Shown: positions 42,455 to 44,234 of the stretch, piece after piece
Position numbering within the stretch: position 1 is the first letter of the stretch
How the letters are laid out: each line of letters starts with the position of its first letter
Assembly (NCBI RefSeq): GCF_011751745.2
Contig: NZ_CP061170.1
Location: 2,914,001-2,978,000, forward strand
Origin: Paramicrobacterium fandaimingii
GTDB taxonomy: Bacteria; Actinomycetota; Actinomycetes; Actinomycetales; Microbacteriaceae
DNA: 64,000 nucleotides
Direction of reading: 5' to 3'
Program-made: the position numbers and the translations under genes
Notes under the pieces: generated by a model
The model's database searches: none
What the model saw: the letters and a program-made list of their open reading frames with translations, nothing else
What the model was told of the DNA's origin: nothing

Positions 42455-42473
42455 GATCTGCTGTGGGCAGATC
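42455..42473 (+). terminator. Hairpin after the protein kinase gene
   Basis: GATCTGC, loop TGTGG, GCAGATC: a 7-bp stem 19 bases after the stop. No U-run. Terminator-like. Confidence 0.4.
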
Positions 42474-42527
42474 TGCCGTCAGCGGCATCCGCTTCCCCTC
42501 GCATTCCCCCGGAGGCATGCTCGAGTC

Positions 42528-43139
42528 ATGGCACACGATGACTCCTCACCACCGGTTTTCACCGAACGCATGCGCGAGCAGCTGCTGCACAAACGCGTGC
42601 TTGTTCTCGACGGCGTGCTCGACGACGACAACGGCACGCTGCTCGCCACCCAACTTCTGCTGCTTGCCGCCGAAGACTCCTCCTCAGACATCGCGCTGTG
42701 GATCCACTCGCCGGGAGGCAGCGTCCCGTCGATGCTCGCGATCCACGACATCATGCGGCTCGTGCCGTGCGATGTCTCGACGCTCACCCTCGGTCTCGCC
42801 TGCAGCGCAGGCCAGTTCCTCCTGTCAGCAGGGGCCCCAGGCAAGCGAAGCGCCCTGCCTCACGCACGAATTCTCATGCACCAGGGCTCGGCCGGCATCG
42901 GCGGCTCAGCCGTCGAGGTTGAGGTGCAAGCCGCCGATCTGCGTCACAACCGTGACACCGTTCTTGGGCTCATCGCCGAAGACACGGGCCAGCCGATCGA
43001 GCGCATTTTCGACGACTCGCTTCACGACCGCTGGTACACGGCCGAGCAGGCGAGGGAGTACGGCTTCATCGATCAGCTTGTTTCGAGCTTTCACCAGGTG
43101 ATGCCCGACCGCAGAAATCCGATCGGACTGGGGGTCTGA
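42528..43139 (+). CDS. clpP: ClpP-family serine protease subunit, triad intact
   Basis: 203 residues, normal for processed ClpP. Catalytic triad by alignment to ClpP motifs: Ser93 in LACSAGQFLL, His119 in HARILMHQG, Asp163 in IFDDSLHDRW. The oxyanion strand is WIHSPGGSVPSML. It lies one base ahead of a second, serine-less ClpP gene, so a mixed 14-subunit barrel is likely. The GGAGG ribosome site is 13 bases from the ATG, a loose spacing. Differs from usual housekeeping ClpP at GLACSAGQ (normally AASMGA), so this is probably not the main ClpP of the cell. It lacks the tig-clpP-clpX context. Confidence 0.92.
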   Translation: MAHDDSSPPVFTERMREQLLHKRVLVLDGVLDDDNGTLLATQLLLLAAEDSSSDIALWIHSPGGSVPSMLAIHDIMRLVPCDVSTLTLGLACSAGQFLLSAGAPGKRSALPHARILMHQGSAGIGGSAVEVEVQAADLRHNRDTVLGLIAEDTGQPIERIFDDSLHDRWYTAEQAREYGFIDQLVSSFHQVMPDRRNPIGLGV

Positions 43140-43140
43140 C

Positions 43141-43749
43141 ATGAGCTCGTACACAATCCCGAACGTCGTCGCGCAGCATCCGCGCGGCGAGCGCATCATG
43201 GACGTCTACTCGAACCTGCTGACCGAGCGCATCATCTACCTGGGCACGCCCGTCGATGCGGGGGTGGCGAACGCGATCATCGCCCAGCTGTTGCATCTCG
43301 AATCCGAGAGTTCCGGTGAGCCGATCAACCTCTACATCAATTGCGAGGGCGGCGACCTGGCCGCCATGCTGGCCGTTTACGACACAATGCAGTATGTGCA
43401 GTCGCCCATCGCGACGACGTGCGTCGGGCAGGCCATCGCGGCGGGTGCCGTTCTTCTCGCCGCGGGCACTCCGGGAAGACGCGCCGTGCTGCCGCACACG
43501 CGCATCGTGCTGCACCAGCCGGCGGCCGAGGGTCGCGGCGCGATTCCCGACCTGATTCTGCAGGCAGACGAGGTCGTGCGCATCCGATCCGAAATCGAAG
43601 AGATCCTGAGCGCTCACACCGGCCAGCCCGTTCCGACGCTGCGTCGCGACACCGATCGCGATCGCGTGTTCACCTCAGCCCAGGCCCTTGACTACGGACT
43701 CGTCGACCAGGTGCTGACACCGAGACGGCAAACGGATGCTGCGGCCTGA
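43141..43749 (+). CDS. ClpP-like subunit with the catalytic serine replaced by alanine
   Basis: 202 residues of ClpP fold. At the place of the nucleophile the sequence is CVGQAIAAGAVLL: Ala100 (codon GCG, 43438-43440) replaces Ser, while His125 (RIVLHQ) and Asp170 (LRRDTDRDR) remain. The oxyanion loop NSPGGS is changed to NCEGGDL. All other features (DVYSNLLTERIIYLG start, hinge helix, TGQ) are present, and the frame is intact, so this looks like a maintained non-catalytic subunit, comparable to cyanobacterial or plastid ClpR. Co-transcribed with the active partner. Confidence 0.92.
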   Translation: MSSYTIPNVVAQHPRGERIMDVYSNLLTERIIYLGTPVDAGVANAIIAQLLHLESESSGEPINLYINCEGGDLAAMLAVYDTMQYVQSPIATTCVGQAIAAGAVLLAAGTPGRRAVLPHTRIVLHQPAAEGRGAIPDLILQADEVVRIRSEIEEILSAHTGQPVPTLRRDTDRDRVFTSAQALDYGLVDQVLTPRRQTDAAA

Positions 43750-43757
43750 TTCCCCGG

Positions 43758-44117
43758 TCAGGCGGCGAGCAGCAGCGCGTCGCTGGCGCTGTTCGTGGCG
43801 CCCCGCCTCCGCAGCCCGGCCGCCACCTCGCTCGTCAGCTCGATGAGCGACGTCTCGAGCGCGCCGGCGATCGCCGCGATCATCTCACTCGAGGGCTCCT
43901 TGCGCCCGCGCTCAACCTCCGAGAGGTATTGCGGAGAGACGCCGGCTGCCTTCGCTGTGTCGGTGAGCTTCTCGCCGCGCCGGCCGCGATGCTCCCGAAG
44001 CCGTTCACCGAGCGCTTCGCGCCACAGGGTCTCGGGCTGTGAGCGCTCCGGTCGTTCTGGTCCGCGCCGCAGTTCTCGCTGCTGCCGCGCCTTCTGCATC
44101 TCCACAATCTCGGCCAT
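43758..44117 (-). CDS. XRE-family regulator, ClgR/PopR-like, with ssrA-like C-terminus
   Basis: 119 residues. The helix-turn-helix reads LGERLREHRGRRGEKLTDTA and AGVSPQYLSEVERGRKEPSS, the pattern of ClgR and PopR, activators of clpP genes in actinobacteria. It ends in DALLLAA, close to the ssrA degron ending (LAA); in Streptomyces the PopR protein, encoded beside clpP3-clpP4, is itself degraded by ClpP through C-terminal alanines. Convergent with the ClpP pair (8-base gap). Likely role: unstable activator of the adjacent operon, linking ClpP capacity to expression (inference). Confidence 0.85.
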   Translation of the reverse strand: MAEIVEMQKARQQRELRRGPERPERSQPETLWREALGERLREHRGRRGEKLTDTAKAAGVSPQYLSEVERGRKEPSSEMIAAIAGALETSLIELTSEVAAGLRRRGATNSASDALLLAA

Positions 44118-44168
44118 GCTTCACCCTAGAACGCTCGGCGCGCGGCTGTCTCGCGATTCTGCTCAGAG

Positions 44169-44234
44169 CAGATTGACGCTGGGCAGATCGACGCTGGGCA
44201 GATCGACGCTGGGCAGATCGACGCTGGGCAGATT
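44169..44234. repeat. Tandem 15-bp repeat just downstream of dcd
   Basis: Four full copies of CAGATCGACGCTGGG (first copy CAGATTGACGCTGGG) and a partial fifth, between the XRE gene and the dcd stop. The unit length is a multiple of three, yet no supported gene covers it. It fills most of the 118-base gap. Confidence 0.92.

Follow-up and report, generated by a model that had tools for sequence, protein, structure and literature searches.

A ClpP2-like Subunit without Its Catalytic Serine in an Accessory clpP Pair of Paramicrobacterium fandaimingii, and Repeated Triad Loss in Related Actinomycete Pairs

Introduction

The housekeeping Clp proteases of mycobacteria and Streptomyces have a core of two unlike subunits, ClpP1 and ClpP2, in which docking is described as the task of ClpP2 and cutting as that of ClpP1 (PMC9067928, PMC9765437, PMC4416901). 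In Mycobacterium tuberculosis the activity of ClpP1 alone is reported to be essential, with ClpP2 serving ATPase docking (PMC9067928); in Streptomyces full activity is reported for ClpP1 combined with the S131A variant of ClpP2 (PMC9765437), but earlier work in vitro reports that inactivation of either M. tuberculosis subunit hardly slowed degradation (PMC4416901). Streptomyces also has a backup pair, ClpP3P4, which is described as appearing upon failure of ClpP1P2, the core that degrades PopR (PMC9765437, PMC12607617). For S. lividans, the PopR box is reported as TCTGCC-3N-GGCGAATCTGCC-3N-GGCAGA (PMC9775585). Dead ClpP subunits are also known from earlier work, as the ClpR of cyanobacteria and plastids (PMC4673316, PMC6508832).

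Here we describe a tandem clpP pair of Paramicrobacterium fandaimingii, located in a 64-kb window (the whole stretch of DNA that was analysed). A first-pass annotation of this DNA held that such a pair is not the textbook arrangement in actinobacteria; its Streptomyces equivalent, clpP3-clpP4, is already described. In the accessible main-text passages of the literature searched, no statement was found that the second subunit of an actinobacterial backup pair is dead or that Streptomyces ClpP4 lacks its His; the founding papers of 2000 and 2002 may say so. The novelty of the observation is provisional.

Results

The P. fandaimingii genome (one contig, 3.62 Mb) contains four ClpP matches, namely the accessory pair and the housekeeping clpP1-clpP2 pair. 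The open reading frame adjoining the housekeeping pair was recognized by eye as what we take to be ClpX. Both accessory genes are on the plus strand. The first (42528–43139) encodes a ClpP1-like ClpP of 203 residues with the complete triad Ser93/His118/Asp167, and the second (43141–43749) is an intact open reading frame for a ClpP2-like ClpP of 202 residues, its ATG separated by one base from the stop codon of the first. A gene on the minus strand (43758–44117) encodes a PopR/ClgR-type helix-turn-helix regulator of 119 residues that ends in LLLAA; this opposite-strand position next to the pair is common to most relatives read. Two adjacent putative PopR-type boxes, TCTGCTgtgGGCAGA (exact) and TCTGCCgtcAGCGGCA (imperfect), occupy 42457–42487 on the plus strand, beginning 71 bp upstream of the start codon of the first clpP, and another, TCTGCTcagAGCAGA, is found at 44158–44172, 41 bp upstream of the popR-like start. 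A tandem repeat with a 15-bp unit (44168–44233; 4.4 copies, 98% match) is also present directly upstream of the popR-like gene and has a GCAGA/TCTGC half-box in each unit.

The second subunit belongs to the CLP_protease family PF00574 (E 2.5e-65, 220.2 bits against a cut-off of 20.2, profile positions 2–181 of 182). When it is aligned with solved ClpP sequences and with E. coli ClpP, Ala100 (codon GCG, 43438–43440, plus strand) takes the place of the catalytic Ser (Ser97 of the mature E. coli protein), with His125 and Asp174 retained, and the oxyanion loop is INCEGGDL as compared with INSPGG in the other proteins. The alignments and reading frames thus confirm what the first-pass annotation had noticed: an intact gene one base behind a triad-complete ClpP, with Ala (GCG) in place of the nucleophile, His and Asp kept, and an altered NCEGGDL loop. 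For the partner, the annotation was right about Ser93 and the completeness of the triad, but alignment gives His118 and Asp167 instead of His119 and Asp163. The combination Ala100-His125-Asp174 departs from the Ser-His-Asp triad of a catalytic ClpP peptidase and resembles the ClpR proteins of cyanobacteria and plastids in lacking the catalytic triad. The best reading is that the second subunit is a pseudo-peptidase, descended from ClpP2 and presumably unable to cut.

Conservation yields one clade-specific candidate for a nucleophile at another position, Cys68 of the NCEGGD loop, which is not a Ser. If Cys68 had taken over, the second subunit would still cut, and His125 and Asp174 are indeed mostly kept. 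Cys is present at this position in 115 of 115 Ala/Gly members, a count that is circular for Cys because a C[E/D] loop was the criterion by which these members were selected. Ser at 68 (NSEGGD) combined with Ala or Gly at 100 also occurs and can be read for or against a moved nucleophile; other dead lineages lose His or Asp instead. We regard such a replacement as scarcely credible.

In the genus, the gene is found in four of five genomes (that of P. fandaimingii included) and has Ala in all four; the fifth genome is without the pair. In the Microbacteriaceae, close matches occur in 41 of 299 genomes, and the Ser position is Ala or Gly in all 40 distinct loci read, with the triads Ala-His-Asp (22), Gly-His-Asp (16), Gly-His-Ala (1), and Gly-His-Glu (1); the family survey that the first-pass annotation had called for therefore found Ser in none of the 40. 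The best 80 matches among named genome loci, from Nocardia to Kribbella, Streptosporangium, and Microbacterium, are biased to the query's own kind and have Ala in 66, Gly in 7, Ser in 6, and Asp in 1. All 80 second subunits in this set keep His and Asp; the partner adjoins in 78, and all 78 of these partners have Ser, His, and Asp. Among the 120 proteins listed of 7620 homologous ones, the residue is Ala in 104, Ser in 8, Gly in 4, Glu in 3, and Thr in 1. The first-pass annotation had reserved judgment in case orthologues with Ser should point to a recent mutation or sequencing error. That explanation is rejected by the genus, family, and named surveys, in which Ala or Gly is widespread; Ser does occur in six of the 80 named orthologues, yet by these comparisons of sequence its loss from the second subunit is old and conserved. 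A pseudogene is disfavored by the open frames and by the low dN/dS given below.

For a wider survey, 393 genomes of the class were sampled, of which 141 matched at E 1e-60, housekeeping ClpP2 accounting for some of these matches; 109 loci were read, fewer than all the matching rows, and sampling across lineages is uneven. Twelve of the class loci (L242 and L247–L257), all triad-complete, were taken as housekeeping ClpP2 and excluded before the counts. Seven of these (L242, L250, L251, L253, L255, L256, and L257) grouped with housekeeping ClpP2 in the tree, L242 at a support of only 62; L248, L249, L252, and L254 have 81–94% identity to one of the seven, and L247 was judged by similarity. L242, L247, and L249 are doubtful as housekeeping loci because their scores against the accessory locus L180 are about equal. 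L133 (Gemmatirosa, intact) was also excluded. The class sample and the genus, family, and named loci together comprise 214 distinct accessory loci (222 before repeated pairs were removed).

The second-subunit triad is incomplete in 175 of these 214 loci and complete in 39, or in 51 of 226 if all 12 excluded class loci are counted as accessory. In the class sample alone, 64 of 97 second subunits are dead. The commonest of the 175 incomplete triads are Ala-His-Asp (108), Gly-His-Asp (25), and Ser-Gly-Asp (15); Glu-His-His, Glu-His-Asn, and Ser-His-Asn occur four times each, Trp-His-Thr three times, Gly-His-Glu and Ser-His-Ser twice each, and Asp-His-Asp, Gly-His-Ala, Gly-His-Gln, Trp-His-Asp, Phe-His-Asn, Ser-Asp-Asp, Ala-Gln-Asp, and Ser-His-His once. 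The routes of loss are therefore replacement of Ser by Ala, Gly, Trp, Glu, Phe, or Asp, replacement of His by Gly in Streptomyces ClpP4, and loss of Asp elsewhere. The 119 homologues listed for the second subunit of S. fungicidicus (L131, 4001–4603; homologues P0124–P0242), which where named are mostly from Streptomyces, all keep Ser and have the catalytic His replaced by Gly (118) or Ala (1). A dead second subunit is common in these pairs, not universal, and it is not required because 39 of the 214 have a full triad.

Accessory pairs also occur on records of a plasmid collection (L129–L132, from Embleya (5.7 Mb), Tsukamurella, Streptomyces, and Prescottella). The Tsukamurella record has the chromosomal neighbors obgE and proB, so not all such records are true plasmids.

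The partner gene adjoins the second-subunit gene in 213 of the 214 loci (207 scored, five more complete, and one truncated), and the commonest spacing is a 4-base overlap (117 of 158 measured gaps). All 212 readable partners have a complete triad, comprising 207 of 207 scored by script and five of the seven unscored; the other two are lost to contig ends, one being truncated ahead of its Ser and the other (L062) missing altogether. The partner ClpP of L108, one of the 207, has its first half out of frame, which reflects either a sequencing error or a decaying pair. Housekeeping loci served as controls (the 30 best matches to the source genome's ClpP2, 30 from 30 genomes with a class match, and 20 picked likewise). 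Their ClpP2 triad is complete in 80 of 80 and their ClpP1 triad in 79 of 79 where ClpP1 was found, which disfavors ordinary ClpP variation as an explanation. In the loci read, loss is confined to the ClpP2-like subunit of the backup pair; the partner and the housekeeping subunits are spared throughout.

The position of the partner gene bears on the proposal that the dead subunit joins the housekeeping core, where it would replace ClpP2 on the ClpP1 ring and retune or dampen the main protease. The ClpP2 descent of the dead subunit in the tree agrees with this, as does the reported interaction of an S. hawaiiensis accessory ClpP with housekeeping ClpP1 and ClpP2 (PMC12607617). An active partner that adjoins almost throughout, frequently with a 4-base overlap, argues instead for joint production and assembly of the pair, and a place in the housekeeping core seems unlikely to us.

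A FastTree tree of 130 rows, rooted on E. coli, places the first subunits with housekeeping ClpP1 and the second subunits with housekeeping ClpP2 (support 99 each); 68 accessory second subunits form one clade (support 91). The pair is therefore a diverged second clpP1-clpP2 operon. The clade includes the Streptomyces type through L223 (family f24), which is 91% identical to L131 of S. fungicidicus, itself absent from the tree; by its tandem genes, this shared clade, the adjacent regulator gene with its C-terminal Ala-Ala, and the putative box ahead of it, the P. fandaimingii pair is a member of the accessory clpP3-clpP4/popR module. For the trees, the 226 rows were reduced to 75 representatives by clustering at 80% identity among rows of the same triad state; loci without a scored partner, L131 among them, were left out. 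A more careful tree, with 67 accessory and 10 housekeeping rows and with the triad and loop columns excluded, also left out L144 (long branch).

This descent also bears on a core of the ClpR kind, in which every heptameric ring would contain dead and active subunits together, after the pattern of cyanobacterial ClpP3/R. In its favor, the neighboring genes encode a dead and an active ClpP, and the Synechococcus ClpP3/R ring is described as three ClpP3 and four ClpR (PMC4673316). However, the pair descends from ClpP1 and ClpP2, and the case has been made that the actinobacterial cores of these subunits consist of stacked homoheptamers (PMC9765437), which makes mixed rings improbable in our judgment. 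The ClpP/ClpR-type mixed barrel suggested by the first-pass annotation holds only insofar as a nucleophile-less ClpP is paired with a complete one, but the origin of the pair is a second clpP1-clpP2 operon.

The careful tree requires nine changes between intact and dead states (8–9 in bootstraps); counted by position, there are 17 changes at Ser, three at His, and 10 at Asp. When the tree is rooted at the housekeeping rows, one reconstruction has six losses and three returns of Ser, in Kribbella L034, Nocardia jejuensis L007, and Actinomadura hibisca L049. An alternative has five losses if L173 and L175 represent a further return, and parsimony cannot discriminate between the two. The separate losses include an Asp-loss group (family codes f25 and f22), the Streptomyces-type row L223, L211, and L245. 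A single ancient origin of all dead forms was rejected (log-likelihood 175.8 lower, p-AU 2.66e-9) in a test that held all dead rows and three nested Ser rows together, a grouping chosen after the tree was known. Ser can evidently return because three triad-complete members nest in the dead clade; such returns would fit tolerance of a dead ring as well as an advantage of it.

In L007, L034, and L049, all nested in the Ala/Gly clade, Ser is back at the catalytic position and the altered NCEGGD loop is kept.

An N-terminal axial segment is present in the second subunit of P. fandaimingii and absent from the first. Three positions of the docking patch, corresponding to E. coli Tyr76, Phe96, and Tyr74, are reported to have been mutated in earlier studies (PMC4416901, PMC9765437). 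The Tyr76 position is Tyr in 213 of 214 second subunits and mostly Trp (147) or Tyr (41) in the 207 partners; the Phe96 position is Phe, Tyr, or His in 211 of 214 second subunits and Leu in 160 of 207 partners. At the Tyr74 position, second subunits mostly have Gln, Asn, or Ser, and no aromatic residue save for His in two of 214; Streptomyces ClpP2 is reported to have Ser there (PMC9765437). These residues are not diagnostic of docking because the housekeeping ClpP1 of P. fandaimingii is aromatic at all three positions (Phe, Tyr, and Tyr), although docking in published cores does not take place on the ClpP1 ring. The suggestion of the first-pass annotation that an inactive ring matters for unfoldase binding is consistent with the residues kept, and with a patch that is not diagnostic it stays a possible role.

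In six pairwise comparisons within the genus, dN is 0.018–0.056 and dS 0.72–0.94 for the second subunit, and dN is 0.046–0.073 and dS 0.60–0.93 for the partner. The dN/dS of the dead gene is thus at most about 0.08, and the gene is under purifying selection in the genus. These values bear on mere decay, in which a redundant accessory ClpP2 copy would be drifting. As drift would have it, the module is patchily distributed (present in 41 of 299 family genomes and absent from one of five in the genus), and the residue at the Ser position shifts among Ala, Gly, and Ser; the low dN/dS, the Tyr at the Tyr76 position in 213 of 214 loci, and a partner triad that is never lost in the loci read run counter to it, and decay appears very improbable.

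The regulator has a score of 67.5 bits (E 9.8e-19) against the ClgR equivalog NF041677, for which the cut-off is 170, and is thus outside that group; it is a more distant relative and is PopR-like by position. Its C-terminal LLLAA is expected to be a Clp degron. Of the 214 loci, 188 have a PopR-like gene, in each case on the opposite strand, and 180 of these genes end in Ala-Ala. In the other 26 no such gene was found, and at least 17 of these cases are not explicable by contig ends (a rough check for room passed 22). Six Kribbella loci (L034, L039, L040, L052, L063, and L069) have the pair, with no PopR-like gene detected beside it.

The pattern TCTGCYNNNRGCAGA occurs at five places in the 3.62-Mb genome, two of them at the accessory locus, and a reversed control pattern occurs at six, so the genome-wide number proves nothing by itself; support for the boxes comes from their place. 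With up to one mismatch, there are three box matches in the window against 0.84 expected, a number reached by five of 100 shuffles. TCTGC-N5-GCAGA lies within 250 bp upstream of 82 of 205 distinct pairs, as compared with 133 of 4100 windows placed at random in the same loci; the exact box is absent upstream of the remaining 123. By triad type, the upstream box was found in 12 of 14 pairs of the Ser-Gly-Asp (Streptomyces) type, 25 of 36 intact pairs, and 25 of 105 pairs of the Ala type. Before popR, the exact box is present in 38 of 177 loci and absent in 139, and inspection by eye of other family members revealed an identical or nearly identical box ahead of popR. The 15-bp tandem repeat was not seen before popR in the genus relatives L086 and L087 and is perhaps a young titration array.

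Discussion

The sequences themselves display the triad loss, its repetition, the descent of both subunits, the gene arrangement, and the boxes. Repeated loss by different routes suggests that the second subunit only holds the unfoldase while the partner cuts. We think it probable that the pair forms a two-ring backup Clp core, in which a ClpP2-like ring docks the unfoldase and the partner alone cuts, under the control of a PopR-like stress loop. From the sequences we infer an assembly, ring arrangement, docking face, substrate flow, and regulatory response as follows. The pair would be a backup peptidase core built of two unlike subunits. The second would keep its N-terminal axial segment and the aromatic residues of the ATPase-docking patch and be unable to cut, and the ClpP1-descended first subunit, which is without the axial segment, would supply all of the Ser-His-Asp sites. 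The unfoldase (ClpX or ClpC) would attach to the dead ring and pass substrate into the chamber, where cutting would come from the partner side only. The housekeeping ClpP1P2 would normally destroy the PopR-like activator by way of its C-terminal Ala-Ala; on failure of the housekeeping core, PopR would accumulate, bind the TCTGC-N5-GCAGA boxes, and switch on both the pair and its own gene. Precedent is found in the Ser-to-Ala mutants of ClpP2 in M. tuberculosis and Streptomyces, reported to be functional, and in the docking of ATPases by ClpP2 (PMC9067928, PMC9765437).

Nature appears to have repeated several times the result of these mutants, that one dead ring is tolerated. If this reading is correct, Streptomyces ClpP4, treated until now as part of a backup protease, would also be a pseudo-peptidase, and the question of why the housekeeping core keeps two catalytic rings would become testable by comparison; the reading may also bear on the survival of natural Clp inhibitors by actinobacteria. 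A stronger proposal is that in the PopR-controlled backup protease of actinomycetes, Streptomyces ClpP4 included, a docking ring inactivated at Ser, His, or Asp evolved repeatedly because an inactive ATPase-facing ring is advantageous and not merely tolerated; we put this forward tentatively and think it rather doubtful. Such a ring might, for instance, offer active-site poisons fewer targets or change the pattern of products.

Of the described systems, ClgR (NF041677) has the same type of helix-turn-helix as the P. fandaimingii regulator, which is more distant and scores below the cut-off of that group. ClpR resembles the second subunit in being ClpP-like, without a working triad, and in having an active ClpP partner (PMC4673316). 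In trees that were built without ClpR sequences, the nearest group to the second subunit is actinobacterial ClpP2; the best reading is that it would work like a ClpR, a likeness of function and not necessarily of descent.

The Streptomyces ClpP3-ClpP4/PopR system has, like the P. fandaimingii pair, tandem clpP genes, an opposite-strand helix-turn-helix gene, and an upstream PopR-type box, and its type of second subunit (L223) shares the accessory clade. The two differ in the residue lost: Ser is kept and His lost in Streptomyces ClpP4, whereas Ser is lost and His kept in P. fandaimingii. Conditional expression and ADEP data are reported for Streptomyces ClpP3-ClpP4 only (PMC9765437, PMC12607617). 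The housekeeping ClpP1P2 of mycobacteria and Streptomyces corresponds to the pair in operon order and descent. Housekeeping ClpP2 keeps its triad in every control locus, whereas the accessory pair has the asymmetry between its two subunits fixed in the sequence.
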